DNA from: Arthrobacter sp.
GTDB lineage: Bacteria; Actinomycetota; Actinomycetes; Actinomycetales; Micrococcaceae
Reading direction: 5' to 3'
DNA: 31,269 bases
NCBI GenBank assembly: GCA_025464925.1
Contig: JAODMS010000059.1
Span: 1 to 31,269 of the forward strand
Each line of letters begins with the position of its first letter. The stretch's first letter is position 1. Position numbers and translations under genes: made by a program. Shown here piece by piece: positions 1,387-20,896 of the stretch. The notes beneath the pieces were generated by a model. It worked only from the letters and a program-made list of their open reading frames with translations, was not told the origin of the DNA and did not search any database.

Positions 1387-2565
1387 TCAGGCGTAGGCGT
1401 TGACCAGACGGACGGCGCCGCCGTCGACGCCCTTGGCGCCCTGCACGTAATCCGGGCCGGTTTTGAGAATCGAATCCGAGTTTTCCTCCACCGTGCCCAT
1501 GACCCAGGACGGCAGGCCCCGCTCGTTGAGGCGGTCCACAGCGGCATCGGCGGCCTCGGCGGAGACGATCGCCACCATGCCCCCGCCCAGGGTCAGGGTG
1601 CGTTCCAGATCGGCCAGCGGTACGGTGCCCAGCTCACCGACGAGCTTGAAGATGGCCGGCAGCTCCCAGGTGGAGCGGTCCACGGTGGCCAGCAGGCCCT
1701 GCGGGAGGACACGGGCCAGGTTCGCGGCGAGGCCGCCGCCGGTGACGTGGCTGAAGCCGTGCACGGCCTTGCCGCCCGGAGCCGAGGATGCGTTGACCGG
1801 GAAGGTTCGAGCCAGGTCCAGGCAGTCGGCGGCATACACGCGGGTGGGTTCGAGCAGTTCCTCACCGAGGGTGCGTCCCAGCTCGGAGACCTGGCGGTCC
1901 AGGGCCCAGCCGGCGTGGTGGATCACGCGGCGGACCAGGGAGTAACCGTTGGAGTGCAGGCCCGAGGAGGCCATGCCGATCAGCACGTCTCCGGCGCGGA
2001 CACGGCCCGGACCCAGCAGGGAGTCGGCCTCGACAACCCCGGTGGCGGCACCGGCGACGTCGTACTCGTGCTCACCGAGCAGGCCCGGGTGCTCCGCGGT
2101 TTCTCCGCCGACCAGGGCGGTGCCGGCAACGGAGCAGGCGGCGGCGATGCCGCGGACGATGTCCGCGATGCGCTCCGGGACGACCTTGCCGCAGGCGATG
2201 TAGTCGGTCATAAAGAGCGGCTCAGCGCCCACCACGACGATGTCATCGACCACCATGCCAACGAGGTCGAAACCGATGGTGTCGTGGATGTCCATGGCCT
2301 GCGCGATGGCCACCTTGGTGCCGACGCCGTCGGTGGAGGTGGCCAGCAGCGGGCGCTTGTAGGTGAGGAGCCTGGAGACATCGTAGAGGCCGGCGAAGCC
2401 GCCGACGCCGCCGAGCACCGAGGAGTTGTGCGTCGCCTTGACGGCGTCCTTCATGAGTTCGACGGCGCGGTCGCCCGCTTCGACGTCGACGCCGGCAGAA
2501 GCGTAGGTGATGCCTGCGGCGTTCTGGGCGGCGTTCATGTCAGCGGCCGGGGAGGCGGAAGTCAT
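1387..2565 (-). CDS. purM: Phosphoribosylformylglycinamidine cyclo-ligase (AIR synthetase)
   Basis: PurM catalyses ATP-dependent ring closure of FGAM to AIR, step 5 of de novo purine synthesis, in the cytosol. The 392-residue protein shows family hallmarks: GITYASAGVDVEAGDRAV near the N-terminus, STDGVGTKVAIA, VDDIVVVGAEPLFMTDYIA, GGETAEHPG and the HVTGGGLAANLARVLP segment. It is somewhat longer than the E. coli enzyme (about 345 residues), mainly through both ends. Its ATG overlaps the purF stop in an ATGA arrangement (2562-2565), so translation is probably coupled and purF-purM form one operon on the minus strand. The identification is firm. Confidence 0.97.
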   Translation of the reverse strand: MTSASPAADMNAAQNAAGITYASAGVDVEAGDRAVELMKDAVKATHNSSVLGGVGGFAGLYDVSRLLTYKRPLLATSTDGVGTKVAIAQAMDIHDTIGFDLVGMVVDDIVVVGAEPLFMTDYIACGKVVPERIADIVRGIAAACSVAGTALVGGETAEHPGLLGEHEYDVAGAATGVVEADSLLGPGRVRAGDVLIGMASSGLHSNGYSLVRRVIHHAGWALDRQVSELGRTLGEELLEPTRVYAADCLDLARTFPVNASSAPGGKAVHGFSHVTGGGLAANLARVLPQGLLATVDRSTWELPAIFKLVGELGTVPLADLERTLTLGGGMVAIVSAEAADAAVDRLNERGLPSWVMGTVEENSDSILKTGPDYVQGAKGVDGGAVRLVNAYA

Positions 2566-4295
2566 ACGGGATCTTTCTTGTTGGCGGGAAGGAGGTCGGC
2601 GTCAGTCAGCAGGCTCTCAAACTCGGCATCCGGTCCCGGGTCGCAGCCCGTGGCACCTGGCCTGTCGGCGGGATCCTCAGTCACGGGAATGGTGACGGGG
2701 TTGCCGGGTGTTCCCTGGGCGGGCTCGACCACTGGGGCGGAGCCGCCAACCGTTCCTCTGGGCGTTGCCGCAGAGGCGGACGCGCCTGTGGCCCCGAGGG
2801 CCGCATCTCCGGCAGCGGGCAGACCGCCCAGATCCGTGCGCTCCAGCAGGTTCCTGCCGGACTTGTCCGAGCCGGGCAGCTCAATGGGGTACTTGCCGGT
2901 GAAGCAGGCGGTACAAAGGCGTTCACGCGGCTGCTGGGTGGCATCGATCATGCCGTCTTCGGAGATGTAGGCCAGCGAGTCGGCGCCGATGGCCTGGGTG
3001 ATCTCTTGTACGGTGGCGCCGTTGGCGATCAGCTCCGCCCGGGAAGCGAAGTCGATGCCGTAGAAGCAGGGCCACTTGACGGGCGGGGAGGAAATCTTGA
3101 TGTGGACGCTCGCGGCGCCTGCTTCACGGAGCATCCGTACGATGGCGCGCTGGGTGTTGCCGCGGACGATCGAGTCATCCACCACCACAACCCGCTTGCC
3201 GCGGATCACTGATTCCAGGGCGTTGAGCTTGAGCCGGATGCCCAGCTGGCGCAGCGTCTGCGAGGGCTGGATGAATGTGCGGCCCACGTAGGAGTTCTTG
3301 ACGAAGCCATGCGCGAACGGGATGCCGGATTCCTCGGCATAGCCTACCGCTGCGGGCGTGCCCGATTCCGGGACCGGAATGACGATGTCCGCTTCCTGGG
3401 TGTTTTCGCGGGCCAGCTGGCGGCCCATCTCCACCCGGGATTCGTATACCGAGCGGCCCGCAATGGAGGCGTCCGGGCGGGCAAGGTACACGTACTCGAA
3501 AACGCAGCCGGCCGGCGTCGCCTCGGCGAAGTGCTGGGAACGGACGCCCTCCTCGTCGATCGCGATGAATTCGCCCGGCTCGATCTCACGGATGAAGCTT
3601 GCACCGACGGTGGCCAGGGCGGACTGTTCGGAGGCGACCACCCAGCCGCGTTCGAGCCGGCCCAGGCACAGCGGACGGACGCCATAGGCGTCGCGGGCGG
3701 CGTAAAGGGTGCCTTCGTCCATGAAGACAAAGCAGAAGCCGCCCTTGATCTTGGGCAGCAGTTCCATGGCGGTCTCCTCGAGGGATTTGCCCTCTTCACC
3801 CGCCAGGAGCGCGGTGACCAGTGCGGTGTCGGAGGTGTTGCCCTGCTTCATCTCGCCGCTGAGGTGATCGCCGTGACGGTCCATGATCATGGCCTTGAGC
3901 TCGGCCGTGTTGGTCAGGTTGCCATTGTGGGCGAGGGCCACCGTGCCTGTGGCTGTTGCGCCCAGGGTCGGCTGGGCGTTGGCCCAGTGGCTGGCGCCGG
4001 TGGTGGAGTAGCGGCAGTGGCCGACGGCCAGGTGCCCGGTCAGGGTGTTCAGCGTGGTCTCGTCGAAGACCTGGGAGACGAGCCCCATGTCCTTATAGAC
4101 GTTGATCCGCTTGCCGTCGCTGGTAGCAATACCAGCAGACTCCTGACCGCGGTGCTGCAGTGCGTACAGCCCGTAATAGGTGAGTTTTGCTACCTCTTCG
4201 CCGGGAGCCCAGACCCCAAAGACACCGCATGCGTCCTGGGGGCCTTTTTCGCCAGAGAGAAGGTCATGAGAGAGTTTTCCATCGCCGCGTGCCAC
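2562..4295 (-). CDS. purF: Amidophosphoribosyltransferase, Fe-S type with propeptide
   Basis: PurF commits PRPP to purine synthesis by transferring ammonia from glutamine to give phosphoribosylamine. The predicted nucleophile Cys23 (DACGVFGVW) follows a 22-residue propeptide, as in class B enzymes such as that of B. subtilis. The PRPP loop VVVVDDSIVRGNT lies at 369-381. Cys264, Cys410, Cys461 and Cys464 fit the four ligands of the structural [4Fe-4S] cluster. An Ala/Pro/Gly-rich tail of roughly 85 residues after about 490 is extra relative to the catalytic core. The start is GTG, with no Shine-Dalgarno but with a GATAAT -10-like box six bases upstream, suggesting a leaderless message. purM follows with a 4-base overlap. 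Confidence 0.96.
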   Translation of the reverse strand: MARGDGKLSHDLLSGEKGPQDACGVFGVWAPGEEVAKLTYYGLYALQHRGQESAGIATSDGKRINVYKDMGLVSQVFDETTLNTLTGHLAVGHCRYSTTGASHWANAQPTLGATATGTVALAHNGNLTNTAELKAMIMDRHGDHLSGEMKQGNTSDTALVTALLAGEEGKSLEETAMELLPKIKGGFCFVFMDEGTLYAARDAYGVRPLCLGRLERGWVVASEQSALATVGASFIREIEPGEFIAIDEEGVRSQHFAEATPAGCVFEYVYLARPDASIAGRSVYESRVEMGRQLARENTQEADIVIPVPESGTPAAVGYAEESGIPFAHGFVKNSYVGRTFIQPSQTLRQLGIRLKLNALESVIRGKRVVVVDDSIVRGNTQRAIVRMLREAGAASVHIKISSPPVKWPCFYGIDFASRAELIANGATVQEITQAIGADSLAYISEDGMIDATQQPRERLCTACFTGKYPIELPGSDKSGRNLLERTDLGGLPAAGDAALGATGASASAATPRGTVGGSAPVVEPAQGTPGNPVTIPVTEDPADRPGATGCDPGPDAEFESLLTDADLLPANKKDPV

Positions 4296-7030: not shown

Positions 7031-8176
7031 CTAGGAGTTGGCGCTGGGAATCAGGCTCCACACCCCGGCCGATTCGTTCCGCTGCGCCTCCTCGGGACCG
7101 CCTTGAGGGCCTTGGCTCAGGTAGCGGGCCGCTTCGGATCCCCAGAGTGGGCGGAAGGAGTAAACGCAGACCAAGCGGAGGCGCGTGGACGCCGCGTAGG
7201 CTGCGAACCGCTCCGGGCTGACACACAGCTTTTCCGCCGTGGCCAAAATCTGGCGGTGTGCTATTAGATAACGCCGCCGGGTCAGGCGGTTTTGCAGCCG
7301 GCGCAGTTCCAGATGGACGTCGAGGTTCGCGAGGTCCAGGGCAGGCTCCGCCCGGGAGCTTTCATCGAAGTCCAACAGCCCTGGCACGCTATTCCCGTCG
7401 GTTCCCAGCACTTGTTTGTCATGCAGGTCCCCGTGGGCCCATCCCGCCGGATCCGGCCGGGAGGAGAGGAGCTTGCTGATGGCCGCTTCTGATTGCGCCC
7501 GCAATCCTGCCCGGGCACCGGCGGCTTCTGGGATGTCTTCGCTGTGATTCAACCACTGGTTGGTCCAGTACCGAAGAGTTTCGGCTTCTACCTCCGGCGG
7601 GTGCGGGGGGAGGCGGTCCAGCACGCCGTAATACGCGGCGCTCCTGGAAGCCGCGAGCGCCGCCACCCAGGCTTGCGACCATTCCAGCCATTTGGCGGCG
7701 AAGTAGGCATCGGTGACCGCGGTATGGTCCTGTCCCAGCTCGTAGTACGAACGGCCGGAAAGACTGCTGAACACTACGACGCTTGGGCCGGTCCTGAGAA
7801 TGCGGGGGGTGTCGAAAAAGCCCTCTGCCAGCGGGGCAGTGGCATTGGTGTGCCGTTCCGCTACCCGCGCGGCCCAGTCTTTCCGGAGCACCTTGATGTA
7901 CTGGTCGCTGGTGCGGACAACGGCGCGGTTGTGGGCGTGTACGACGACTTCGCCTTTGGGCGCTTCCACGGCGAGCGAGGGAAGCTTCGGATCGTGCCGC
8001 GGGACCGTGTCGAAGACTCCTTGCCGCAGGTGCCCCGCGCGGACGCCCGGCGCTGACGGCGTACACACCTCCAGGATGTAATTTCCGGGCGCAGCCTCCG
8101 GCCACGCCCGCCGGACCTGCCAGACGGCCCCGGCCGCGTCGGTGACGTGCAGCGGAATGTCCGGATACCAGCTCAT
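7031..8176 (-). CDS. APH/maltokinase-like phosphotransferase, second of a pair
   Basis: This 381-residue protein belongs to the aminoglycoside/choline kinase (APH) fold. The catalytic loop HGDLHDKQVL lies at 248-257 and the metal-binding LLDFDES at 267-273. The residue that is Asn in classical APH enzymes is Gln255 here; HGDxHxxQVL is the form I know from actinobacterial maltokinases and related sugar kinases, so a sugar substrate is favoured by inference. Its ATG overlaps the upstream kinase stop by four bases (8173-8176). It is the last gene of the glycosyltransferase/ABC operon. A role in drug resistance is possible but not supported by context. Confidence 0.82.
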   Translation of the reverse strand: MSWYPDIPLHVTDAAGAVWQVRRAWPEAAPGNYILEVCTPSAPGVRAGHLRQGVFDTVPRHDPKLPSLAVEAPKGEVVVHAHNRAVVRTSDQYIKVLRKDWAARVAERHTNATAPLAEGFFDTPRILRTGPSVVVFSSLSGRSYYELGQDHTAVTDAYFAAKWLEWSQAWVAALAASRSAAYYGVLDRLPPHPPEVEAETLRYWTNQWLNHSEDIPEAAGARAGLRAQSEAAISKLLSSRPDPAGWAHGDLHDKQVLGTDGNSVPGLLDFDESSRAEPALDLANLDVHLELRRLQNRLTRRRYLIAHRQILATAEKLCVSPERFAAYAASTRLRLVCVYSFRPLWGSEAARYLSQGPQGGPEEAQRNESAGVWSLIPSANS

Positions 8177-9438
8177 GGAACAAGTTCCGAGGCCCGGTCG
8201 AGGTGCCGGGAGATGTCAGCGGCCCATTCCGGCGTCCGGTCCCGGAACGGGTCGACGCTGCTGGAGAACATTCGGAACGCCGCCCACGCGTCCATAGCCG
8301 CCGGACTAAACTGGCCCCCGGACCGGACGTAGCCGTCGATCAGGTGGTCGGTGTGTGGTGCTCGCACCGGGCCGGCGTGCCCCCTCCACCGGCTCATCTC
8401 TTCCACTGCGGCGAAGGAGCCGAGATCAACTTCCGTGGCCCCGTTGTGGGCGCGGTCGAAGTCGATCAGGCGCACCTCCGAGCCGCCAATCAGCACCTGG
8501 TCCGCGGAGAAGTCCCCATGGACCAGGACTTCGGCCCCGGAGTCCTGTCGGTCTTCCAGCTGCCGGCGGATCCGGTCTGCGACCAGTGCGGCAGGCCCGT
8601 CGAGCGCGGGCAAAAGTGTCCCGACCATCTTGTAGGTGGCCGTTATCTGCCACTGGAGATCTTCGAACCGGGCGGGCCAGGACTTCGCCTGGGCCGGAAT
8701 GCCATGGAGCCGGGCGAGGGCTTCCCCGGCCCGGCGGGCACCCTCTTGATCGTCGCTGGCAACCAGGTCCCTGTCGCCCCAGGCGGGGCTGGCGCTGATT
8801 CCGTGCCGCGAGCAGCCGGCGTCGCCGAGTCGGGGAAGCACCGGTACCCCGTGCTGTTCCAGCCGTTGCTGAAACAGCCGGTCCAGGTCGTCGTGGGCGG
8901 ACTGCGCCGCGATCTTGATCACGATGGACGCAGTTGGAGTTTGCTCCATCAGGACCAACCGCCGCTCGGGCTTGTACCGCAGCACCCGGGCATCACCGCT
9001 GAGCAGCTCGTAGCCTGGCCGTTGCACGACCCCGAGCCGTTCCAGGCCATGGTTGCCGAGCCAGCGCAGGTTCTTGCGCAATGCCCAGTCGTCCGTGATC
9101 CCGCCGATGGCGACTACGTCGTCCCCGTGGCGCGGGTCCGGACGGACGAGGCGGATGCCCCCGCCGCGGCTCGCAGAGGATTGGGCTCGCCCATGCAGCT
9201 TGCAGTTGTCGGCCGTGGTGAGGGCCCAACCATGGTCCTCCTTGCCGCTGCCCGGGTGGCGAAAGGCAACGAGCGCGGACGTGCGTGGCTTGTACCGGAC
9301 CCGGGTGATGTGGATCTGCTCGCCCACAAGCTCGGACAGGCGGTCGTCGTCGAGCACGGCTGCCAGGCATGGAAGGGCGCCGTCGTGGTGAGCCAGCGCA
9401 AGATCGGCGTTCCGCGAGCTCGTGGGGGGCGCGTTCAC
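8173..9438 (-). CDS. APH/maltokinase-like phosphotransferase, first of a pair
   Basis: Read from GTG at 9438, the product has 421 residues. The start is set by a GTGA overlap with the ABC-transporter stop (9435-9438); the frame upstream looks like shadow sequence. The catalytic loop HGDFSADQVL is at 307-316 and the metal motif LIDFDRA at 324-330, again with Gln in the usual Asn position. In the N-lobe a similar strand occurs twice (RVRYKPRTSALV near 46-57 and VLRYKPERRLVL near 152-163), which may be a small internal duplication. It is distinct from its downstream partner, so the two probably act on different substrates or steps. Confidence 0.82.
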   Translation of the reverse strand: MNAPPTSSRNADLALAHHDGALPCLAAVLDDDRLSELVGEQIHITRVRYKPRTSALVAFRHPGSGKEDHGWALTTADNCKLHGRAQSSASRGGGIRLVRPDPRHGDDVVAIGGITDDWALRKNLRWLGNHGLERLGVVQRPGYELLSGDARVLRYKPERRLVLMEQTPTASIVIKIAAQSAHDDLDRLFQQRLEQHGVPVLPRLGDAGCSRHGISASPAWGDRDLVASDDQEGARRAGEALARLHGIPAQAKSWPARFEDLQWQITATYKMVGTLLPALDGPAALVADRIRRQLEDRQDSGAEVLVHGDFSADQVLIGGSEVRLIDFDRAHNGATEVDLGSFAAVEEMSRWRGHAGPVRAPHTDHLIDGYVRSGGQFSPAAMDAWAAFRMFSSSVDPFRDRTPEWAADISRHLDRASELVP

Positions 9439-11312
9439 GTCGGCACCTCCAGCTCCGGCTCGGAGTGCGGGTTCGGTGAGTCGCCCATCCACTTGGCGAA
9501 GCGGCTCTCGTTGTCCTGCAGCAGTTCGGAGGGAGTGCCGTCTTCGATGATGCGGCCGTCCTCGAGCCAGATGACCCGGTCGCACAAGCGCGCGGCGAAC
9601 GCGTCGTGGGTGATCATGATCGAGGTCCGCCCCTGCGCCAGAACGTCCAGCGAATCCAGAATGGATTCACGCGTAGCAGGGTCCAGTCCTGCGGTTGCTT
9701 CGTCAAGAATGACGATCGGCGCCTGCCGGAGGATGGCGCGCGCTATGGCGAGCCGTTGGCGCTGGCCACCGGAAAGGTCCTTCGCAGCTTCCCCCAGGAC
9801 CGTGTCATAGCCGTTGGGGAGGGCCCGGATGAAGTCGTCGGCCTGCGCCAGCGAGGCCGCGTTTTCGATGTCCTCATCCGAGGCGTCGAGGCGGCCGAAT
9901 CGGATGTTCTCCCGCACAGTGGTGCCGAAGAGGACGGAGTCCTGAAGCAGGATCGAGACGTGCGAGCGTACTGACGCGATTTTGAGCTCCTTCAGATCCT
10001 CGCCTCCCATCCGGACCGTGCCGGAAGTAGGGTCGATCATGCGAAGAATGAGGCTGGCCAGCGTTGATTTTCCGGCACCGGACGGACCGAGGATCGCTAC
10101 GTGTTCCCCGGCCCGAATGCTGAGGCTTATCTCGTGCAGCACGGTGGTCCCTTCCCCATGACCAGCAGAGACGTTTTCGAAGGCGATGTCGGGGTTCGGG
10201 CTTTTCAGGGCGCGGGCGTTGGGGGCCTCGGGCAGATCAGTCTGCGCCTCGAGGAGGTCCGCCACACGCTCCCCGGAGGCTGTGGCCCGGGCGATCCGGC
10301 TGGTGTACCTGGCAACATCCTTCAGCGGCCTCATCCCGGTTTTCAAGTACATCAGGAAGATGATGAGGTCCCCTGGGGTAATCGAGCGGTCCAGGACGCG
10401 CATTCCTCCTCCGGCTAGGACGACCGCCGTGGCGACGCCGATCAGCACGTCGGTACGGCGTTGGAGACTGGCGGACAGCCGCAGCGCGACGACGCCCGTT
10501 CCCATGGTCGCTGCATTGCTGCTGTGAAAGTTGGAGCTGATGGTGTCTTCAAGTCCGTAGGCCTGGACTTCCCGCATGGCACCAAGGGTCTCCGCAGCAG
10601 TTGTGGCCAAGGCTCCTTCGCCTTTGCGGGACCTACCGGCCGCCTTGCTGATGGAGACCGAAGTCTTGCGGGACAGGAGGGCGAAAACCCCACCTGCCAG
10701 GACGACGACGAGGGCTAGCAACGGGTCCAACCACAGCATGACGAGTGACATGGCTACGAGCGTGACCAAATTACCCACCAGCGGGAGGCCTGCCGTGACG
10801 GCGACTTCCTGCAGGCGGCCGACGTCGGCCACCAGGCGCTGGACCGTGTCCCCGGAGGAGGCCCGCGTGTGGTGCCGCATGGACAGGCCCTGCACATGGC
10901 GGAAGGTGCGGGCCCGCAGGTCGGCGGCGACCTTGGACCCGACCAGGGCGAAGCAGATAGCGGTCCAGTAGTTGGCAATGGCACGCAGGATGCTGATGGC
11001 AACGATGGCGCCGGCGCACAGCAGCAGCGTCTCGGTGGTCGCGGGCATGGCGAGGCCCGGCTTCATCGATGCACCAAGCGAGCGTGAAACCGCATCGATG
11101 ACCACCTTCACGGGCCACGGCTCCAGCAACCGGAACAGAACGCCCAGCGCGAGTGCCACGAATCCGCAAGTCATCAAAAACCGGTGCCCGCGAAGATGTG
11201 GGCGGACGCACCGCAGCGTCCGGCGGAGTCCGGACTCAGGCTCCTCTTCGCGCGTCCGCCGCCACCTTCTCCGCTTGGCCGCCGGAGGCTTGTGGCTGGA
11301 AGCACCGGTCAT
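9435..11312 (-). CDS. Fused ABC exporter (permease plus ATPase)
   Basis: The 625-residue half-transporter has a type I exporter membrane domain (about residues 40-340, with hydrophobic helices such as FLMTCGFVALALGVLF) and a C-terminal ATPase. Walker A is GPSGAGKST at 409-417, the Q-loop is near 457, the signature LSGGQ is at 513-517 and Walker B is IVILDEAT at 533-540. It should function as a homodimer in the cytoplasmic membrane, exporting a lipid-linked, peptide or glycoside cargo. A strongly basic N-terminus (AAKRRRWRR) precedes the first helix. It overlaps its neighbours by four bases on both sides and sits between glycosyltransferases and kinases, so it likely exports their product. Confidence 0.9.
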   Translation of the reverse strand: MTGASSHKPPAAKRRRWRRTREEEPESGLRRTLRCVRPHLRGHRFLMTCGFVALALGVLFRLLEPWPVKVVIDAVSRSLGASMKPGLAMPATTETLLLCAGAIVAISILRAIANYWTAICFALVGSKVAADLRARTFRHVQGLSMRHHTRASSGDTVQRLVADVGRLQEVAVTAGLPLVGNLVTLVAMSLVMLWLDPLLALVVVLAGGVFALLSRKTSVSISKAAGRSRKGEGALATTAAETLGAMREVQAYGLEDTISSNFHSSNAATMGTGVVALRLSASLQRRTDVLIGVATAVVLAGGGMRVLDRSITPGDLIIFLMYLKTGMRPLKDVARYTSRIARATASGERVADLLEAQTDLPEAPNARALKSPNPDIAFENVSAGHGEGTTVLHEISLSIRAGEHVAILGPSGAGKSTLASLILRMIDPTSGTVRMGGEDLKELKIASVRSHVSILLQDSVLFGTTVRENIRFGRLDASDEDIENAASLAQADDFIRALPNGYDTVLGEAAKDLSGGQRQRLAIARAILRQAPIVILDEATAGLDPATRESILDSLDVLAQGRTSIMITHDAFAARLCDRVIWLEDGRIIEDGTPSELLQDNESRFAKWMGDSPNPHSEPELEVPT

Positions 11313-12484
11313 GGCACGGCCACCCTCCGTGAGGCGGCCAATGCGGCAGTGATGCGCGACAGCACACCGTCCCAGCTGAAGCGTTCTACCGCAACAGCGC
11401 GGGCTTGCTCCCCGAGGTGTTCTCTGAGGTCAGGATCCTCCGCGAGGCGGAGGAGGGCGGCGGCTAGGGGCGCCGGTTCCCCGGGCTCCACCAGTATCCC
11501 GGTGCGCCCATCGTCCACGATCGAGGGGATCTGGCCGACGGCGCTGGCAATGATGGGCATCGCCGCCGCCATGTACTCATAGACCTTCAGCGGGGAAAAA
11601 TAGTCGGCCTGGCCGGCTGTTTCCGGGGGATAGGGAGCGGCGGCGGCATCGCACTCGTCGAGAAGGCAGGGTACCGCCGCGGGCGGCACCGCGCCGGTGA
11701 AGTCGGTGTCCACACCCAGCGAAGCGGCGAGGCGTTCGAGGTCTTCGCGGCCCGGACCGTCCCCGATGACCTTTACCCGCCACCGGCGATCCGGTTCAGC
11801 GGTCTGCTGATTGGCCAGGGCAACGGCGTGCAGCAGGCACGGGACCCCGTGCCAGGGCTTCAACGTTCCGACGAAGGCCACGGTGAGGTGGTCCGGATTC
11901 CGTCGTCCGGGGCGGCGCGCGGTGATGCGTTCGACGTTGACGCCGTTCGGTGCCAGCAGTGTCCTAGCCGTGGGCACCCGGTCCCGCACCCACCGGACGA
12001 CAGGCTCCGAGACGCAGGCGACGACGTCGGCCGTCCCGGCGTTGCGGCGCAACACTGTTTCGGCTTTCTTGACGTCGAGCAGCCGCCGGTACCGCTGTTG
12101 CTCTTCGATCAGCGGGGCGTTGACTTCGAGCACCGAAGGGACCTCGAGGACACGGGCCACCACCGAGAGCGCCGGGCTGAAAAGCGAATAACGCTCGTAG
12201 AAAAGACCGCAACCCTGGTGCAGCACCTCGTCAACGAGAGCCAGCGCTGCGTCCTCGACTGCCCGTTCACGGGCCGGGCCCGGGGCAGAGCCCGGTTGGA
12301 CTTCGACGACGTCCAGATCGGCCAGGTCGGCGGGGCGCTCGGTTCCCCGCTGGGCGCAATAGACCGTGACGGCAGCACCGGCACCCCGCCAGGCCCGAAC
12401 GATTTCCTGAACGTGCACCGAAGAACCCTTGGTGCCGAAGACTGGCACCCCGGGGTCGGCGCAGAGGTAGGCCACGCGGATCAT
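11309..12484 (-). CDS. GT-B glycosyltransferase (GT4-like), third of three
   Basis: This 391-residue retaining-type glycosyltransferase has a GT-B layout. The N-terminal acceptor domain contains GTKGSSVHVQEIVRAW. The C-terminal nucleotide-sugar domain starts near VAFVGTLKPWHGV and has SPLKVYEYMAAAMPIIAS followed by DGRTGILVEPG, the conserved Glu-rich region that contacts the sugar nucleotide. Length matches GT4 enzymes. No membrane segment is evident, so it acts at the cytoplasmic face. Its ATG at 12484 overlaps the preceding gene by four bases and its stop overlaps the exporter start by four. The donor sugar and acceptor are unknown. Confidence 0.9.
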   Translation of the reverse strand: MIRVAYLCADPGVPVFGTKGSSVHVQEIVRAWRGAGAAVTVYCAQRGTERPADLADLDVVEVQPGSAPGPARERAVEDAALALVDEVLHQGCGLFYERYSLFSPALSVVARVLEVPSVLEVNAPLIEEQQRYRRLLDVKKAETVLRRNAGTADVVACVSEPVVRWVRDRVPTARTLLAPNGVNVERITARRPGRRNPDHLTVAFVGTLKPWHGVPCLLHAVALANQQTAEPDRRWRVKVIGDGPGREDLERLAASLGVDTDFTGAVPPAAVPCLLDECDAAAAPYPPETAGQADYFSPLKVYEYMAAAMPIIASAVGQIPSIVDDGRTGILVEPGEPAPLAAALLRLAEDPDLREHLGEQARAVAVERFSWDGVLSRITAALAASRRVAVP

Positions 12485-13710
12485 GCGACCTTCCTTTCCG
12501 TGAGGGAGAGGGACCGCAGTACCTCGGCCTGGCGGCGGACGTCGAAGTCATCCTCGATCAGCGCGCGGGCGTTGCGGGCCAATGCAACCCGGTCCGTGCT
12601 GGGGGAGGTCATCTTGTAAATGGCCCGGGCCAGGGCGCGAGGACTGCCCGGCCTGGTCAGGATCCCCGTGGAACCGTTCCGGACCACTTCCGGGATGCCC
12701 GTGACCGCGGTGCTGATGCAGGGGACCCCGGCGGCCATTGCCTCCAGCAGGACAGTGGGCATGCCGTCCGCATTTCCGTCGGCGCCGACGACACACGGTG
12801 CGATGAAGATGTCGGACGAATCGAGCAGTTCATGGATCTGGTACTGGGTCTGCGGCCCGATCAGCCGGACGTGATCGCTCAGCCCGAGCTGTGCGATGCC
12901 GGCCCCGAGCTCCTCGGCCATGATGCCGGTTCCAGCGATGCGCAGGTCCAGGCTCATGCCCTGTCCCAGCAGTTCGGCAGCAGCGGGCAGCAGATGCTGG
13001 AATCCTTTCTTTTCCACCAGCCGCCCCACGGCGGTCACGCGCACCGTGGCTCCGATCGGGCGCGGGTCCCGGTAGGGAAAACGCTCAAGTTCCAGACCGT
13101 TGTGCACCAGATATAGACGGGACGTGGAAACCGGAAAGAGGCGACGCAGGTAGCGCAGATTGAAGCGGCTGATCGTGATGGCGTGATGGGCCTGTTCCAG
13201 CTTGACCCGGAGGTCATCGGTTCGGACCGAGTCATGGAAGATATCGACGGCGTGGGCGGTGAAGGAATACGGAATGCCCGTGATGGCTGAGGCCAACCGC
13301 GCGACAGTGGTTGGGGTCGTCGCGAAATGGACGTGCATGTGCCGGATATTCCGCTTCTGCAGGGCGGCGGCAAGGTTGATGGCCTGGATTGCGTCGTCCG
13401 ACCTTGCGGCGATCAGTTCGGCGAGGTTCCGGGCGACGGCGTCTGTGAGTCCGGCCTCGTCGGCCGTCTTGAGGCACTCCCAGAGTTCCATGGTCTTGTA
13501 AGGCCGGTCAATGTAGGTCACCGGCGCCTGGACCCGTGCGAGCTCGGGGTGGAACCTGGAATCGTTGCACGGCCGGAGGGAAAAAATCTCGATCCGGTCT
13601 CCCGCTGCTTCCCGGGCCAGGATCTCCGAAACGATGAAGGTTTCGGAGAAACGCGGATACATCTTGAGGACGTAGGCAGTCCCCGGCTTAGACGGCAACA
13701 CGGCCGGCAC
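12481..13710 (-). CDS. GT-B glycosyltransferase (GT4, WcaL/AmsK-like), second of three
   Basis: The 409-residue protein starts with a segment (LKMYPRFSETFIVSEI) that I associate with exopolysaccharide GT4 enzymes of the WcaL/AmsK type. The GT-B C-domain shows AVGRLVEKKGFQHLLPAA and DGMPTVLLEAMAAGVPCIST. The start shown is GTG at 13710. A second GTG at 13701 is almost as good, because GAAGGA lies 2 bases before the first and 11 before the second. Either choice overlaps the upstream gene (23 or 14 bases), so translation is coupled. Function in surface or secreted glycan assembly is an inference from family and operon. Confidence 0.9.
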   Translation of the reverse strand: MPAVLPSKPGTAYVLKMYPRFSETFIVSEILAREAAGDRIEIFSLRPCNDSRFHPELARVQAPVTYIDRPYKTMELWECLKTADEAGLTDAVARNLAELIAARSDDAIQAINLAAALQKRNIRHMHVHFATTPTTVARLASAITGIPYSFTAHAVDIFHDSVRTDDLRVKLEQAHHAITISRFNLRYLRRLFPVSTSRLYLVHNGLELERFPYRDPRPIGATVRVTAVGRLVEKKGFQHLLPAAAELLGQGMSLDLRIAGTGIMAEELGAGIAQLGLSDHVRLIGPQTQYQIHELLDSSDIFIAPCVVGADGNADGMPTVLLEAMAAGVPCISTAVTGIPEVVRNGSTGILTRPGSPRALARAIYKMTSPSTDRVALARNARALIEDDFDVRRQAEVLRSLSLTERKVA

Positions 13711-14902
13711 TTTCCTTCGAAGCGGCTTTCAGTTCACTCTTGTTGGCCTGCAGGGCTGGCTGCAGCAGTTCGGCCGCCAGCTGCGGGACGCGGATCAGCC
13801 CGTCCAGGACCGCACGACGGCGGTCAACCGTGGTGCCGACCCTGGAGGACAGCCAGTCGGCCAGGATGGCCGGTGTCAAGGTGCCGATTTCATGCTGTTC
13901 CAGATAGCCTGCCTTGGCCAGGGACGCGGCGCGGATGCGCTGCTCGGCGCGGGACTGGCTGCGGGGCACTATCAGCGCAGGGACATTGGTGCTCATGATC
14001 TCGCACACCGTGTTGTAGCCCCCCATCGAGATGACGGCGGCCGCGTGACGGATGTGGAAGACGATGTCATCCACCGCGGCGACGACCTTGACTCGGGGTC
14101 CAGCCTGGCGCCGGAGGTCATCGAGCTGGGCGGCGGGCATCTGCGGCCCGGCCACGATCAGGTGTCCCAGCCCGACCGGCACCGGGGCAGCGACCGCCAC
14201 GCTGGCCAGGGCGTGGCCGTCTGAGCCGCCGCCGACCGTGGTCATGCAGTACGGGCCGGGCATGCAACTCGTCCCGGACACCGAAGGCCGCCCGGCGGCA
14301 AGATAGCCGGTGTAGCGGATGAGCTTGCGCAGGGAGAACGGAATTTCGCCGGCCGCCACAGGGTCGTGGACCGCGGGGTCGCCGTAGACCCAGATGGCAT
14401 CGAACAGGGCCTTGACCAGCCGCGGCCCGCCAATCCCGGCCCATTCGGTGAAGGCAGCGGCGGGGGAGTCCAGGACCTCGCGGAGCCCGAGCACCACCCG
14501 CACGGGGCCGGCGGAGCGGGCACGCCGCAGAGCCAGTTCCAGTTCGCCGTGGACACCGGTGGCGTGGCGGTCCACAATCACCAGGTGGGGATGAAAGCCG
14601 CCCAGGACGGCCTGCAGCAGCCTGGCGCGCAAGAACACCAGATCGTCCATGGGCAGCGCCAGATCGCGGGGCCGGTAGCCTTCGGCGCTTTTCGCTATGC
14701 CCGGGAGCAGCACCCAGTCCCAACCCTCAGGAGCCGGGAACGCGGGCGCCAGCGCGGTGCCGGTGATGAGGAGCCCGGTGACGGACCGGCCGGTGAGCCC
14801 GGGAAGTTGGTTGCTTAGCGCGTGGGCCAGAGCCAGATTGCGGCGTACGTGCCCCAAGCCCACTGAATCGTGTGAGTAAAGCACTATGCGCATAGGCTCC
14901 AC
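13688..14902 (-). CDS. Predicted glycosyltransferase (COG4671/MurG-like GT-B), first of three
   Basis: The 404-residue product opens with MRIVLYSHDSVGLGHVRRNL after three residues. That segment is typical of the uncharacterised COG4671 glycosyltransferases, distant relatives of MurG. The C-domain has VISMGGYNTVCEIMS and ALIVPRSQSRAEQRIRA, a UDP-sugar-binding layout. GTG at 14902 is chosen over ATG at 14893 because GAGGAGG lies six bases before the GTG. It is the first gene of the six-gene run, 160 bases downstream of the sensor kinase, and the gap carries tandem repeats and a possible promoter. Substrates are unknown. Confidence 0.85.
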   Translation of the reverse strand: MEPMRIVLYSHDSVGLGHVRRNLALAHALSNQLPGLTGRSVTGLLITGTALAPAFPAPEGWDWVLLPGIAKSAEGYRPRDLALPMDDLVFLRARLLQAVLGGFHPHLVIVDRHATGVHGELELALRRARSAGPVRVVLGLREVLDSPAAAFTEWAGIGGPRLVKALFDAIWVYGDPAVHDPVAAGEIPFSLRKLIRYTGYLAAGRPSVSGTSCMPGPYCMTTVGGGSDGHALASVAVAAPVPVGLGHLIVAGPQMPAAQLDDLRRQAGPRVKVVAAVDDIVFHIRHAAAVISMGGYNTVCEIMSTNVPALIVPRSQSRAEQRIRAASLAKAGYLEQHEIGTLTPAILADWLSSRVGTTVDRRRAVLDGLIRVPQLAAELLQPALQANKSELKAASKESAGRVAV

Positions 14903-14969
14903 AGCAATCCTCCTCGGGATTCGCGGCCTTCCCGCCGCTCTGCACTATCTCCTGGCGGCGGTGCTTGAT

Positions 14970-14975
14970 CTTATG
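14970..14975 (-). promoter_or_regulatory. Possible -10 box of the glycosyltransferase operon
   Basis: CATAAG on the minus strand (four of six matches to TATAAT) lies about 70 bases upstream of the first glycosyltransferase gene. The expected -35 position is poor. Tandem 7-base repeats lie just upstream of that position, the layout expected of an activator-dependent promoter. This is weak evidence on its own. Confidence 0.3.
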
Positions 14976-15005: not shown

Positions 15006-15037
15006 GATGAGGAGAAGATGAAGGATTTCTCATGAAG
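15006..15037. promoter_or_regulatory. Tandem GATGARG repeats, candidate response-regulator site
   Basis: GATGAGG (15006-15012) and GATGAAG (15017-15023) are spaced 11 bases apart start to start, one helical turn. A third copy, CATGAAG, is at 15031-15037. OmpR-family regulators bind such direct half-sites at about 11-bp spacing. The repeats lie between the histidine-kinase stop and the first glycosyltransferase gene, so the adjacent response regulator is the natural candidate. Binding is inference. Confidence 0.45.
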
Positions 15038-15061: not shown

Positions 15062-16597
15062 TCAGAGCCGGACGCCAACAGCCTGCAGGGGAATCCGGAT
15101 CATGAAGGTGGCACCTTCACCGTATTCAGATTCGACGGTGGCCATCCCGCCATGCGCTTCGGCGATGGCGGAGACGATCGCCAGACCGAGGCCCGACCCC
15201 GCCTCTCCGCGGCCGGGGTGGGCGCGACCGAAACGCTCGAAGATCCGTTTCTGGTCCTCTACGGCGATCCCGGTGCCGGTGTCCCGCACCCAGAGCAGCA
15301 ACGTATCTGCTTCCGGCACCGGGGCGCCGTCCGCCGCCGTCGGGCCTTCGATCCTGCTGCCCAAGGCGATCGTGGCGGAGCTCCCGGTGTATTTGACGGC
15401 ATTGGCGGCCAGTTGGACGAGGGCCTGCGTGAGCCGCTGGGAGTCGGCTTCCATCACATAATCGGCGGTCTCGTCTATTTGCCAACGGCGGTCCCCGAGG
15501 ACATGGATTTTCTCCATCACCTGTTGGATGAATTCAGCGATCTGGATGGGTTCCTTCCTGATGAAGTCCGGGTGGCTGGCGTTGGCCAGCAGGAGCAGGT
15601 CATCCACGAGGCGCTGCATCCGGTCCACCTCTTCGAGCAGCACGGTCCTGGTGGCGGCAACGTCGTCGGGGTCATCGACGGCCACAAGCTCCAGGTGCCC
15701 CCGAAGGATGGTCAAGGGGGTCCGCAGTTCATGGCCGGCGTCGTCCAGGAACTGCTGCTGGTGCTGGGCGCCCTCATCCAATCTTTCAAGCATGGTATTG
15801 AAGGTTTTCGCGAGCAGCGTCACGTCATCGGCGCCGTCGCGCACTTCCACCCGCCGGGTGAGGTCCTCCTGGCTGACCACCTCGCTGGCTTCGCGCAGGC
15901 GCCGGAGGGGATCCAGCAGGCGGCCGGCGACAAGGCCTCCGATCAGCGCAGCGGCGACCAGGGTGCCGGCGGCCACCAGTGAGTAGGTGCGGACCGAGGC
16001 CAGCATGTGCTCCTGCTGATCACCGAGGTCCCGGCCAACCAAGAGGTACGTTCCGGTCGTTCCCGTTCCTTTCACCGGGAGGACGGCTGCTCTGAGCGGG
16101 CGGCCGGCCACGATGAGGTCGCCGAAGGCGGCGCCGGCCGGGTTGCCCAGCGCAGCGGCGGCCGGGTAGGTGCCTGGGTCCAGGAGGGTTCCTTCCGGGT
16201 TCCCGTCTACTTTCCAGTCCACCCGCCCATCAACAATTCCGGCCATGACCTCGTTTGCCCGTGGTTCGATATCTTCGGCGGCTGCATGAAGGCGCTCGCT
16301 GTAGGACGTCCCGCTCAGATTGTTATCGGTCCGCACCAGCTTGATTACCGCATGGCCTTTGTCCAGGAGCGCCTGATCAACCCTCGCGTCGGACTCCTGG
16401 AACTCCACCGTGAAGGCGATCAGGCCAGCCGTCACCAGTCCCGCGAGCATCATGACCAGCATGGCGGCCACCACCCGAAAGCGCACCGTATGGATCTTGG
16501 CGCTCCAGCTGAGCCGGTCCGGATCTCCCGGAGCGCCTGACGGCATCGCGGGCACCGCGTGGCCGTTGCCGCGTGGATGGTCCTGCGTGATAGCCAC
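15062..16597 (-). CDS. Sensor histidine kinase with HAMP domain
   Basis: The 511-residue product is read from GTG at 16597, which has AAAGGG upstream; an earlier GTG at 16654 has poor spacing. Transmembrane helices lie at about 41-63 and 206-226 and flank an extracytoplasmic sensor of roughly 140 residues. A HAMP linker follows (about 227-280). The phosphoacceptor is His289 in DAGHELRTPLT. Further on are the N-box (QLAANAVKYT), G1 (VRDTGTGI) and G2 (GSGLGLAI) of the ATP-binding domain. It follows its response regulator by 65 bases on the same strand. The signal sensed is unknown; the operon downstream suggests envelope-related regulation. Confidence 0.93.
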   Translation of the reverse strand: MAITQDHPRGNGHAVPAMPSGAPGDPDRLSWSAKIHTVRFRVVAAMLVMMLAGLVTAGLIAFTVEFQESDARVDQALLDKGHAVIKLVRTDNNLSGTSYSERLHAAAEDIEPRANEVMAGIVDGRVDWKVDGNPEGTLLDPGTYPAAAALGNPAGAAFGDLIVAGRPLRAAVLPVKGTGTTGTYLLVGRDLGDQQEHMLASVRTYSLVAAGTLVAAALIGGLVAGRLLDPLRRLREASEVVSQEDLTRRVEVRDGADDVTLLAKTFNTMLERLDEGAQHQQQFLDDAGHELRTPLTILRGHLELVAVDDPDDVAATRTVLLEEVDRMQRLVDDLLLLANASHPDFIRKEPIQIAEFIQQVMEKIHVLGDRRWQIDETADYVMEADSQRLTQALVQLAANAVKYTGSSATIALGSRIEGPTAADGAPVPEADTLLLWVRDTGTGIAVEDQKRIFERFGRAHPGRGEAGSGLGLAIVSAIAEAHGGMATVESEYGEGATFMIRIPLQAVGVRL

Positions 16598-16662
16598 GGT
16601 TTTCCCTTTCCGATGGCGGCGACCGAACCCCGGCACTCGGCGTCGGTCACGCACCCTCTTAA

Positions 16663-17328
16663 CTAGCCGAGGCGGTATCCCGCGCCCCGGGTCGTGAGGA
16701 TCCGGTCCGCCCCGATCTTCTGCCGTAACTGGCTCACATAGACATCTACGACGTTGGAGGTGCCGTCAAAGTCGTAGCCCCACACGTGGCTGAGGAGTTG
16801 TTGCCGGCTCAGGACCTGTCCCGGATGGTGCAGGAACGTTTCGACCAGCGCGAACTCGCGGGCCGAGAGGTCAATGACCTTGTCGCCGATGCTGACCGTG
16901 CGGGTGCGCAAATTCAGTTCCAGGGCCCCGTGCCGGATGATGTTGCCCTCGGGCGGATCGTTGTTGTCGGCCGTGCGGAGGCGAAGCCTGATGCGGGCCA
17001 CGAGCTCCTCGAAGCGGAACGGCTTGACCATGTAATCGTCCGCGCCGCCCTCGAGACCGGCCACGGTGTCCGCGGCCGAGCCGCGGGCGGTGAGGAAGAT
17101 GACAGGGATACCCACCTGGCTTTGGCGAAGGACAGTCAGGACGGTGAAGCCGTCCAGACGGGGGAGCCCGACGTCGAGAAGCAGGAGATCGAAGTCGCCG
17201 CTGGAGGCGTAGTCCACTGCTGTGACACCGTCCGCGACGACGGTGGGGGCGAATCCGGCCGCTCGCAGACCCTTCTCGATGAACCGCGAGATGCGCTCTT
17301 CGTCTTCGGCAATGAGTATCCGGATCAC
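16663..17328 (-). CDS. OmpR-family response regulator
   Basis: The 221-residue protein has a receiver domain (residues 1-115) with acidic pocket Asp9, phosphoacceptor Asp52 (LLLLDVGLP), and Lys102 in VKPF. A winged-helix DNA-binding domain follows (about 125-221; LSAREFALVETFLHHPGQVLS, then VVDVYVSQLRQKIG and TTRGAGYRLG). GTG at 17328 is used because AGGATCAAC precedes it; the frame upstream is not protein-like. It is cotranscribed with the histidine kinase and probably regulates itself and possibly the downstream glycosyltransferase operon. A terminator-like hairpin lies in its leader. Confidence 0.94.
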   Translation of the reverse strand: MIRILIAEDEERISRFIEKGLRAAGFAPTVVADGVTAVDYASSGDFDLLLLDVGLPRLDGFTVLTVLRQSQVGIPVIFLTARGSAADTVAGLEGGADDYMVKPFRFEELVARIRLRLRTADNNDPPEGNIIRHGALELNLRTRTVSIGDKVIDLSAREFALVETFLHHPGQVLSRQQLLSHVWGYDFDGTSNVVDVYVSQLRQKIGADRILTTRGAGYRLG

Positions 17329-17864: not shown

Positions 17865-18674
17865 TCAGTCCGCGGCGTGCGTGGCGCCCAGAAGGTCACG
17901 AACCCGCGCGGCGATTCTCACGAATTCCGGATTTTCCATGCTTTCCCCGTAGTCGCGGTTGTTACCCAGCGGCACGTCGAGCGTCTCCAGGATCCGGCCG
18001 GGGCGGGGGCTCATGACGACAACCCGATTGGCAAGGAAAACGGCTTCGGCTACCGAGTGGGTCACCAACATCACCGTGGTGCCAGTTTCACGCCAGATCC
18101 GATGGAGCTCGACGTTCATCCGTTCGCGTGTCAAAGCGTCCAAGGCGCCGAACGGTTCGTCCATGAGCAGCACGTCGGGCTCATGGAGCAGGGCACGGCA
18201 TAGTGAGACACGTTGCTGCATACCGCCCGACAGTTCGTGCGGCATCGAGTTTTCAAATCCGGCCAGGCCGGTCATATCGATCAATTCCTCCGCCCGTCGG
18301 GCAGCCTTCATCCTGTCCATGCCCCGCATCTCGGCCTGGAGCAGAATGTTCCCCCGCACGTTTCGCCATTCCAGCAGTGCGGCACGCTGGAACACGTAGC
18401 CGATGTCCCGCCGCGGCCCCTTTACCTGCTGACCGCGCAGTTGCACCGCGCCCTCGCTGGCCCGGGTCAGGCCAGCGACGACTTTCAGCAGCGTTGATTT
18501 GCCGCAGCCAGAGGGGCCGGCGATCGACACAAATTCCCCAGGCGCCACTGACAGGTTGATTCCTTCGAGGGCGGTAACGGCTCCCCGTTTCGAGGAAAAG
18601 GTGACATTCATATTCTCGATCCCGACCACTGGCGATGTGCCCGTGGCAGGGACGTCCGGAAGGGTCGCGGCCAT
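17865..18674 (-). CDS. ABC importer ATPase, NitT/TauT (SsuB/TauB) family
   Basis: The 269-residue ATPase is read from ATG at 18674, with AGGAAAG upstream; a longer frame upstream is not protein-like and would overlap the lipoprotein gene. Walker A is GPSGCGKST (53-61), the Q-loop is near 96, the signature LSGGM is at 148-152 and Walker B is VLLMDEPF at 168-175. The sequence LLEWRNVRGNILL is characteristic of the nitrate/sulfonate/taurine/hydroxymethylpyrimidine importer ATPases. It powers the permease encoded two genes upstream. It starts 10 bases after the binding-protein stop, so the three genes form one operon. Confidence 0.93.
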   Translation of the reverse strand: MAATLPDVPATGTSPVVGIENMNVTFSSKRGAVTALEGINLSVAPGEFVSIAGPSGCGKSTLLKVVAGLTRASEGAVQLRGQQVKGPRRDIGYVFQRAALLEWRNVRGNILLQAEMRGMDRMKAARRAEELIDMTGLAGFENSMPHELSGGMQQRVSLCRALLHEPDVLLMDEPFGALDALTRERMNVELHRIWRETGTTVMLVTHSVAEAVFLANRVVVMSPRPGRILETLDVPLGNNRDYGESMENPEFVRIAARVRDLLGATHAAD

Positions 18675-18684
18675 GTCGTCTTTC

Positions 18685-19740
18685 CTACTTCGGCTGGTAC
18701 TGCGCGTCGTAATACTTGGCGGCGTCGTCGGCGGCACCGAGCAGTCCGGCGCCATGGAGCGTCTTGATAGTCGCGGCCCAGTCTGCCGGATCGTTCACGC
18801 CCGGCTTCTTACCTGACGTCGCGGAGGTGTGGAGCAATTTGATGGTTTCCGTCCACTGGGCCAGGACAACGGAAGCCGGCGGAATTTGGGGGTCCTTTCC
18901 TTCCATCGCTTTCGCAGCGGCCTCCGGATTCTTCACTGCGGCTTCGAAGGATTCCGAAACCGCCGCCATCATCTGGGCCGCCAGGTCCTTGTTCTTGGAC
19001 AGGTAGGACTCGGATGAGATCAACCCGTTTGAGTAGAAGTTCACTCCTGCATCGGCATAGCGCAGGTAGGTCATCTCCTTGCCGCTCTTATTTGAAATCG
19101 TGGGACCCTGGTCGTGGGCGAAGCCGATCAGTCCGTCTACTTTGCCCGAAAGCACGGAGGCGACCTTACCTGCGGCATCCAGGTTCTGCTGCTTCACGTC
19201 ATCCTGAGCCAGGCCAGCCGCTTTGAGGAAGGCCGGAAAAGTGACAGTCGGAGCGTCGCCGGCCGAGACGGCGATCGTCTTGCCCTTGAGGTCCGCCGGC
19301 GTCTTGATCCCTGATTCGGTGAAAACCTGAACCGCCGACGGGGTCGTCTGCAGATAAACGCCGAGGCTCTTGACCTTTACGCCCTTGTCGATGTTCGCCA
19401 GCACGGCAGGTGTGTCCGCCCACCCGAAGTCCACCTGCCCCTGTCCGGTTGCCTGCACCGTCTTGGTGGAGCCCTGGCCTGCCTTGATGGCCAGGTCAAT
19501 GCCGTGCTTCTTGAAGATGCCCTGTTCGACGCCGTAGTAGAAGGGGGCATGTTCGCCGTAAGGGTACCAATTCAGCATCAGTGTAACCGGCTTGGTTACT
19601 CCGGCTGCGGCGGTGGAGGCTCCTCCTGCAGCGGTGGCGGAGGCGCCTGCTCCAGCCGGGGTTCCGCCCCCACAGGCGGAGAGGGCTACTGCTGCGGCTG
19701 CGAGGCCGGCAGTCAGAATTGATCTGCGAACGATCTTCAT
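18685..19740 (-). CDS. ABC importer substrate-binding lipoprotein (NMT1/SsuA-like)
   Basis: The 351-residue precursor has a Sec signal with lipobox LSAC, giving lipidated Cys23, then an Ala/Gly/Thr-rich linker. The mature part starts with TLMLNWYPYGEHAPFYYG and EQGIFKKHGIDL, the hallmark of the NMT1/THI5-like periplasmic binding fold used for pyrimidine thiamin precursors, alkanesulfonates, taurine or nitrate. ATG at 19740 has AAGGA six bases upstream. I cannot fix the ligand. Co-regulation with a sugar-type catabolic operon, suggested by a shared operator, argues for keeping non-classical ligands open. Confidence 0.9.
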   Translation of the reverse strand: MKIVRRSILTAGLAAAAVALSACGGGTPAGAGASATAAGGASTAAAGVTKPVTLMLNWYPYGEHAPFYYGVEQGIFKKHGIDLAIKAGQGSTKTVQATGQGQVDFGWADTPAVLANIDKGVKVKSLGVYLQTTPSAVQVFTESGIKTPADLKGKTIAVSAGDAPTVTFPAFLKAAGLAQDDVKQQNLDAAGKVASVLSGKVDGLIGFAHDQGPTISNKSGKEMTYLRYADAGVNFYSNGLISSESYLSKNKDLAAQMMAAVSESFEAAVKNPEAAAKAMEGKDPQIPPASVVLAQWTETIKLLHTSATSGKKPGVNDPADWAATIKTLHGAGLLGAADDAAKYYDAQYQPK

Positions 19741-19781
19741 TTCAGTTCCTTAATACTAGGAGCAAGCAATGGCTGGGGAGG

Positions 19782-20660: not shown

Positions 20661-20717
20661 GCTGGCTCTCCGCATCATTGCTGGATGTGTTTCGACGGGG
20701 GAAGCGGATAACCATTT

Positions 20718-20733
20718 GGGAATGCGCTTTCCG
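20718..20733. promoter_or_regulatory. LacI-type operator copy upstream of the importer operon
   Basis: The 15-mer GGGAATGCGCTTTCC at 20718-20732 is identical to that in the operator at 22120-22134, in front of the Gfo/Idh operon. It has the central CG and near-dyad symmetry of LacI/GalR-family sites. It lies within about 75 bases of the permease start. Confidence 0.7.
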
Positions 20734-20859
20734 CTCTCGATACAAATTAGGGTGTCATGCATCACATGTCAACCCGGGGATCGGGAGCGGATTCAGGGCT
20801 TCGGTGGGCCGGCGAGATGGACGAAGCCAGGCTGGTGGGTGGCCAGGGTTTGCCGTGCC

Positions 20860-20884
20860 AGCCGGCGCGAACCCGCTGCCGGCT
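20860..20884 (-). terminator. Candidate hairpin terminator after the LacI-type gene
   Basis: AGCCGGC (20860-20866) pairs with GCCGGCT (20878-20884) across an 11-base loop, starting 12 bases after the regulator stop on the minus strand. There is no T run. It would separate the regulator from the importer operon. Confidence 0.45.
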
Positions 20885-20896
20885 CCCCCGCTCCCG

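Follow-up and report, generated by a model that had tools for sequence, protein, structure and literature searches.

A conserved operator-linked operon of glycosyltransferases, an exporter and paired kinases in actinobacteria, possibly for an acidic glycan

What product would call for three glycosyltransferases, one fused ATP-binding cassette (ABC) exporter and two kinases of the aminoglycoside phosphotransferase (APH) fold, encoded side by side? This question is raised by a six-gene block on the minus strand, at 7031..14902, of a 31,269-nucleotide stretch of Arthrobacter sp. DNA; we call the whole stretch the window. The initial annotation of this DNA proposed that the six genes glycosylate and phosphorylate a carrier or small molecule and export it. 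The unit counted here is larger: it comprises the six genes, an operator and an adjoining histidine kinase and response regulator, the operator and the two-component genes being absent from that annotation. The gene set and its order are conserved, the operator recurs near the operon and the two-component genes, and a nucleotide-sugar dehydrogenase is a recurrent neighbour. On balance, we lean towards a self-contained locus for an acidic (uronate-containing) surface or secreted glycan that has its own two-component switch.

Six overlapping genes

The six genes, in the order in which they are read, are as follows (aa, amino acids).

13688..14902, minus strand: GT28/MurG-like glycosyltransferase, the first gene; 404 aa; Pfam PF04101 at 35.6 bits
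12481..13710, minus strand: GT4 glycosyltransferase a (GT4a); 409 aa; Pfam GT4; best listed curated model EpsE, below its cut-off
11309..12484, minus strand: GT4 glycosyltransferase b (GT4b); 391 aa; Pfam GT4
9435..11312, minus strand: fused ABC exporter of the MsbA/ABCB type; 625 aa; Pfam ABC_membrane and ABC_tran (PF00664 and PF00005)
8173..9438, minus strand: APH-fold kinase K1; 421 aa from the GTG at 9438 (the mechanical open reading frame runs from 9585); Pfam APH
7031..8176, minus strand: APH-fold kinase K2; 381 aa; Pfam APH

These coordinates and Pfam families (three glycosyltransferases, one fused exporter and two APH kinases) agree with the open reading frames (ORFs) that had been reported, and the short overlaps said to join them measure 23, 4, 4, 4 and 4 bases between successive genes. 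The motif AGGAGG sits 6 bases 5' of the GTG start of the first gene. The G+C content of the operon, 0.66–0.68, is inside the range of the window (0.62–0.70), and the GT28 protein of the window is identical to a protein named from an Arthrobacter metagenome-assembled genome. Among the models listed, which were the best 25 at most for each protein, none of the six proteins passed a curated NCBIfam cut-off. GT4a scored 189.7 of the 400 bits needed for EpsE, and the exporter scored 357.7 bits against a cut-off of 602 for MsbA (TIGR02203) and 289.6 bits against 329.05 for CydC. The first protein scored 24.7 bits with the MurG model TIGR01133 (cut-off 250), and its resemblance to MurG is confined to the C-terminal half.

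Conservation in actinobacteria

A scan of GTDB genomes with an alignment of 25 first-gene relatives as the query returned 350 encoded relatives. The best 80 of these 350 were kept, and the counts of gene order, flanks and operators given here describe those 80 loci. Gene order was counted in the 70 loci with at least 8.2 kb downstream, the other ten being too short. The order GT28-GT4a-GT4b-ABC-K1-K2, with its orientation, was kept in 65 of the 70 actinobacterial loci. These loci span Micrococcaceae, Microbacteriaceae, Brevibacterium, Actinomyces, Propionibacteriaceae, Rothia, Kocuria, Janibacter, Ornithinimicrobium, Millisia and a metagenome-assembled genome titled Corynebacterium. Conservation beyond close strains, which the initial annotation had set as a test of its proposal, is thus found: the order crosses actinobacterial orders and reaches Proteobacteria. 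Presence is patchy: at an E value of 1e-30 or better, the first gene was found in 22 of the 149 family genomes and 18 of the 396 phylum genomes; both counts include the centre genome (G001), which was picked for having the gene. Across 31–33 chosen loci, the pairwise protein distances of the six components correlate at 0.75–0.92, a range that is not corrected for phylogeny.

Eight loci of close relatives of the window (L001, L003-L008 and L014) carry a second, tandem copy of K2 on the 3' side of K2 that is 44–49% identical to K2 of the window, which has no such copy. None of the eight has a dehydrogenase in the fetched stretch. A further locus, L037 (WNZI01000053.1), is titled Vibrio cholerae strain 35D and carries the actinobacterial cluster. 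Its title looks wrong, because the phylum sample around its genome is the same set as that around the Arthrobacter genome.

A conserved operator upstream of the operon

When the window and 11 Arthrobacter-group relatives were aligned over the 160 bases that precede the first gene, a conserved block emerged just past the histidine kinase gene. The elements upstream of the operon are as follows.

14968..14973, minus strand: candidate -10-like hexamer, TAAGAT; TANNAT in 10 of the 12 aligned promoters
15007..15032, minus strand: operator TGAGAAATCCTTCATCTTCTCCTCAT, 26 bases; putative response-regulator site
15062..16654, minus strand: sensor histidine kinase; HAMP, HisKA and HATPase_c (Pfam)
16663..17328, minus strand: OmpR-family response regulator; start approximate (mechanical ORF to 17646)

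The operator has the consensus TGAGARnnCTCTCATC-N5-CTCAY, in which the TCTCAT and CTCAY repeats are about 11 bases apart. OmpR-type regulators use repeats spaced about 11 bases. We examined its conservation by a leave-one-genus-out test in 79 loci, with a matrix seeded with 12 sites from pattern matches and genus labels taken from record titles; L058, with 134 bases upstream, was left out. The upstream site was the best of the whole locus in 71 of the 79 and among the top three in 75, at an estimated chance rate for a rank-1 upstream site of about one full-length locus in 200. It ranked second in L011, L040 and L067, and in L026, where it scored 29.4 bits, it was outranked by one site, presumably at the dehydrogenase of that locus.

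An all-group matrix, trained on 29 sites of these same loci, gave scores above 15 bits at 77 sites upstream of the first gene and at 30 other places in 1.5 Mb. As the operator is partly palindromic, 19 of these 30 lie in that same upstream region but on the other strand. In 4 of 4 whole Arthrobacter/Pseudarthrobacter genomes, the pattern with up to 3 mismatches allowed matched once, ahead of the first gene, and the reversed-pattern control gave 0. The operon site was present in four of five further genomes, in two of them as a tandem pair. Tandem operators upstream of the first gene were seen in L009 and L010, where the copies start 40 and 49 bases apart; in L009 the additional copy carries 4 mismatches. 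The window has a second operator-like score, 17.3 bits at 4255 within the ORF 2562-4295; L008 has identical letters, and we regard this match as probably due to chance.

Proposed link between the operator and the two-component system

The adjoining genes have the OmpR/PhoB architecture, with a receiver and winged helix in the regulator and HAMP-HisKA-HATPase domains in the kinase (Pfam). Judged from sequence, the OmpR-type regulator is a candidate binder of the operator. It most likely activates the operon rather than represses it, as the operator ends 34 bases ahead of the hexamer kept in most of the aligned promoters.

The unlinked loci are consistent with this assignment. Among 11 genomes searched, the nine without operon-adjacent two-component genes all have a histidine kinase elsewhere that is 38–42% identical (the match in G556 spans residues 177-503 only), and these kinases are putative orthologues of the operon-linked one. 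In the three unlinked loci that were read (L150-L152), the response regulator is 59–60% identical and an operator site of 24–32 bits lies within about 0.8 kb of the two-component genes in all three. This site precedes the gene of a small protein that matches no Pfam family and, judged by eye, looks exported. Genome G554 has exactly two pattern matches, one at the operon and one at the unlinked two-component locus. In two of the three unlinked loci, a further APH-family kinase gene and the small protein without a Pfam family flank the operator (L150 5978-7198 and L152 1348-2628).

For linked two-component genes and separately placed dehydrogenases, sites were scored with the all-group matrix, for which the 95th percentile of random 420-base stretches, real sites included, is 5.4 bits. 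All seven Brevibacterium loci have an own site of 7.4–18.2 bits, about 440–550 bases before the first aligned residue. Of nine separately placed dehydrogenases, one has a strong site of its own and two share the divergent operon site (L026, L020 and L080 in all).

A nucleotide-sugar dehydrogenase as a recurrent neighbour

Once the six genes and the two-component genes are set aside, a nucleotide-sugar dehydrogenase is the neighbour of widest occurrence; ORF clustering placed it in 36 of 90 loci. The 61 fully flanked loci include 27 with a dehydrogenase, 32 with the two-component pair and 49 with either. Twelve cluster-carrying genomes, together about 46.6 Mb, contain 37 dehydrogenase genes including the clusters' own copies, so that about 0.017 would be expected per 21-kb locus, against 27 observed in 61. 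Families present in at least five genus groups, besides the six genes and shadow frames, are only the dehydrogenase, the two-component genes and the rhizobial-type importer ATPase. The copies in Actinomyces naeslundii and Escherichia coli are closest to UDP-glucose 6-dehydrogenases.

The paired APH-fold kinases

K1 carries the motifs HGDFSADQ and DFD, and K2 carries HGDLHDKQ (HRDLHDKQ in many relatives) and DFD. The H..D and D residues, which include the catalytic and metal-binding aspartates, are invariant in the K1 and K2 alignments. Structure models of both proteins are confident, with mean pLDDT values of 91.6 for K1 and 93.6 for K2. The top Foldseek match of K1 is a mycobacterial maltokinase, and its profile search returned an aminoglycoside kinase first and maltokinase second. 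For K2, a glucosamine kinase is the best fold match and capreomycin phosphotransferase the next, whereas the profile search gave weak matches, most of them to antibiotic-type APH entries. The fold alignments have 13–16% identity and TM-scores of about 0.4–0.5 on the query, and maltokinase and glucosamine kinase are therefore fold neighbours rather than assignments.

K1 and K2 occupy a single open frame in five Kocuria loci and in Paracoccus, and K1 relatives named from Rhodobacterales are about 645–741 aa long, which suggests that the two kinases act together. An apparent ABC-K1-K2 fusion in a 1588-aa frame of Kocuria L062 was rejected: its first half is a shadow frame with no Walker A or LSGGQ, and only K1-K2 are in frame. 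These kinases are annotated as aminoglycoside phosphotransferases and could be taken for resistance genes.

Copies and relatives outside actinobacteria

On an E. coli plasmid, all six genes stand in the order seen in the window, and behind them come genes for an alginate-export-family barrel (PF13372) and a UDP-glucose dehydrogenase. Of 5,426 complete E. coli genomes, 18 have the block on plasmids, with an identity of at least 99%. Five of the eight plasmid proteins were scanned with Pfam: both kinases matched APH, the barrel matched PF13372, the dehydrogenase was recognized, and the GT28 protein had no Pfam match yet aligned to that of the window at 34%. The two GT4 proteins and the exporter align to the window proteins at 36–40%. 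The alginate-export/AlgE-family barrel was seen only in the E. coli version of the cluster; it is assigned by Pfam family only, as a sequence search of solved structures gave no meaningful match. A Paracoccus plasmid has GT28, two GT4 genes, the exporter, one 740-aa double kinase and adjoining two-component genes. At an E value of 1e-15 or better, the E. coli K1 has named relatives in Rhodobacterales, Thiocapsa, Gloeocapsopsis, Caldilineaceae and actinobacteria. With K2 of the window as the query, the plasmid search gave no match. The locus has probably spread in part by horizontal transfer.

More distant GT28 loci have other neighbours. Those of Azospirillum and Sulfitobacter include a histidine phosphatase and a polysaccharide deacetylase, that of Sinorhizobium meliloti a polysaccharide lyase (PF14099, L086 6669-7637), and importer genes stand in place of the kinase pair. 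The loci of S. meliloti, Rhizobium and Sulfitobacter have a nucleotide-sugar dehydrogenase, and near a Manganitrophus relative there is a gene annotated as belonging to the alginate-lyase family (L089 14655-16664). A glucuronan reading of the S. meliloti locus was dropped, since the PF14099 lyase matched no solved structure and the dehydrogenase is nearest to the ManNAcA type. The Clr regulon paper concerns other pSymB genes (PMC5498481).

Proposed function and alternatives

In the mechanism we propose, the OmpR-type two-component system would bind the 26-base operator and turn on the single operon. The GT28/MurG-like enzyme would start or extend a glycan on a carrier, probably a lipid-linked one, and the two GT4 enzymes would lengthen it from sugar nucleotides, with UDP-glucuronate presumably among the donors where a UDP-glucose dehydrogenase accompanies the operon. 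K1 and K2 might, as a coupled pair, phosphorylate the glycan or one of its sugars, and the MsbA/ABCB-type transporter would carry the product across the membrane. We infer the product class, the carrier, the kinase substrate and the direction of transport, as we do every step past gene identity, from family membership and context. A bolder version, which we consider doubtful, is that these loci represent a distinct route of acidic-polysaccharide export across Gram-positive and Gram-negative phyla, in which a single-polypeptide MsbA-type exporter recognizes the phosphate added by the kinase pair as a tag for termination or export, and which in actinobacteria has its own two-component system and often a single-copy operator.

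Several results weigh against the acidic-glycan locus with its own switch. No polymerase or initiating phosphoglycosyltransferase was found among the six genes with Pfam; for the polymerase, this is as the initial annotation had said. The window has no dehydrogenase, and 34 of the 61 flanked loci have none nearby, which weakens the case for uronate in the product here; in addition, the S. meliloti dehydrogenase is closest to a ManNAcA-type enzyme. Five of the 70 loci are missing K1 (L002, L008, L017 and L064) or both kinases (L012), so the kinases are not strictly required. On the S. meliloti, Rhizobium, Azospirillum and Sulfitobacter plasmids, the GT28 gene is accompanied by other glycosyltransferases and by an ABC protein that is longer and different, and no recognized kinase pair was found in these loci. 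As for the switch, the upstream site was not rank 1 in eight of the 79 loci, in four of which (L024, L013, L021 and L016) it ranked 10 to 104, and the sole pattern match in the Actinomyces genome G003 is at another place. Four Gram-negative loci have no convincing operator before the first gene (best 5.5 bits, all-group matrix). For the two-component genes, no own site above 3.4 bits was found at six more kinase-first loci, at nine from Arthrobacter or at twelve in which the kinase follows the dehydrogenase or K2, and of the nine separate dehydrogenases four have sites of only 7–11 bits and two have none.

The product may instead be a lipid-linked oligosaccharide, that is, a short phosphorylated chain on a polyprenyl or glycerolipid carrier that the exporter flips, to remain a glycolipid or be passed to protein or peptidoglycan. 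We regard this as a possible but less likely case. The MsbA/ABCB type includes lipid flippases, and PglK flips a lipid-linked oligosaccharide; the MurG-like C-terminal half of the first enzyme and the presence of just three transferases with no polymerase would also fit. However, Pfam identified no oligosaccharyltransferase, ligase or priming enzyme among the six genes, and no such gene is among the families recurring in at least five genus groups. The alginate-export barrel and the lyase genes near relatives suit a polymer better.

A wall-bound phosphorylated or uronic polymer of Gram-positive actinobacteria, similar to teichuronic or teichoic acids, rather than a secreted exopolysaccharide, seems improbable to us. 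Phosphate and uronate are typical of such wall polymers, and the 80 kept loci are all actinobacterial by title, bar the one apparently mislabelled. Yet E. coli (on plasmids) and Paracoccus, bacteria that lack walls of this kind, have the same gene order, and presence in 22 of 149 family genomes is unlike that of a core wall polymer. Similarly unlikely is a metabolite or antibiotic that is modified with sugar and phosphate and expelled from the cell for self-protection or signalling, which is the small-molecule half of the initial proposal. In profile and fold searches, APH-fold kinases are similar to antibiotic kinases as well, and macrolide-type self-protection can combine a transferase with an exporter. 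Against this, there are no scaffold biosynthesis genes among the six, the kinases have maltokinase and glucosamine kinase as their top fold matches, a sugar-nucleotide dehydrogenase recurs and the gene order is identical in distant bacteria. The recurring dehydrogenase, the E. coli barrel and the lyase and deacetylase genes near rhizobial and Azospirillum relatives favour an acidic glycan over a small molecule, which narrows the "carrier or small molecule" first proposed.

The unit of six genes, operator, two-component system and often a dehydrogenase occurs in several actinobacterial orders and on plasmids, yet its annotation consists only of 'glycosyltransferase' and 'aminoglycoside phosphotransferase' labels on scattered genes. 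With the operator, the regulon and the inducing signal become directly testable, and the kinase pair is a handle on whether phosphorylation controls polysaccharide export.

Other features of the window

Three further regions were noted, and no RNA family reached its gathering score in the window.

17865-21997: taurine/nitrate-type ABC importer genes (ATPase, NMT1-like binding protein and permease) and a LacI-family regulator
22055-24567, minus strand: two overlapping ORFs of 431 and 406 aa without a Pfam match
25406-26302: 298-aa protein with a beta-lactamase-family domain (PF13354)

Comparison with known systems

Our searches, confined to open-access full-text papers (leaving aside subscription papers and preprints), found no description of the six-gene cluster or its product, although one may have escaped them. 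The earlier statement that no described pathway has this gene set therefore stands, in that no assigned product was found there. The same searches yielded no product for the GT28 loci of S. meliloti, Rhizobium and Azospirillum.

In the KpsMT and Wzm-Wzt systems for capsules and O-antigens, as they are generally known, glycosyltransferases build the glycan in the cytoplasm and an ABC transporter exports it, as would be the case here. WbdD is a kinase that acts on such a glycan as a chain terminator. Those systems have a separate ABC-2 permease and ATPase, whereas here one protein fuses PF00664 and PF00005, and the present cluster has two APH-fold kinases. No KpsC/KpsS-type linker transferase was found among the six genes or the four neighbours scanned. 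Nor did Pfam reveal a priming phosphoglycosyltransferase, Wzx or Wzy of the Wzx/Wzy pathway in the six genes and the 14 larger ORFs of the window, three of which have no match. The synthase-dependent alginate system needs a GT2 synthase and an AlgE-type barrel, and there is no GT2 among the six.

The exporter belongs to the same class as MsbA, PglK and ChvA/NdvA, types that export lipid A-core, lipid-linked oligosaccharide and cyclic glucan; against curated transporter models it falls below every cut-off among the best 25 of 189 listed. The closest solved folds for K1 and K2, maltokinase and the actinobacterial glucosamine kinase, have in common with them an extra N-terminal region and the HGD...Q motif, in which glutamine replaces the usual asparagine. 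Unlike those enzymes, K1 and K2 are paired and lie beside an exporter, and none of the six genes is a maltose or glycogen gene. The S. meliloti, Rhizobium and Azospirillum loci resemble the present one in having GT28 followed by other glycosyltransferases with a long ABC protein nearby, and differ from it in that a phosphatase, deacetylase or lyase and importer genes replace the kinase pair.

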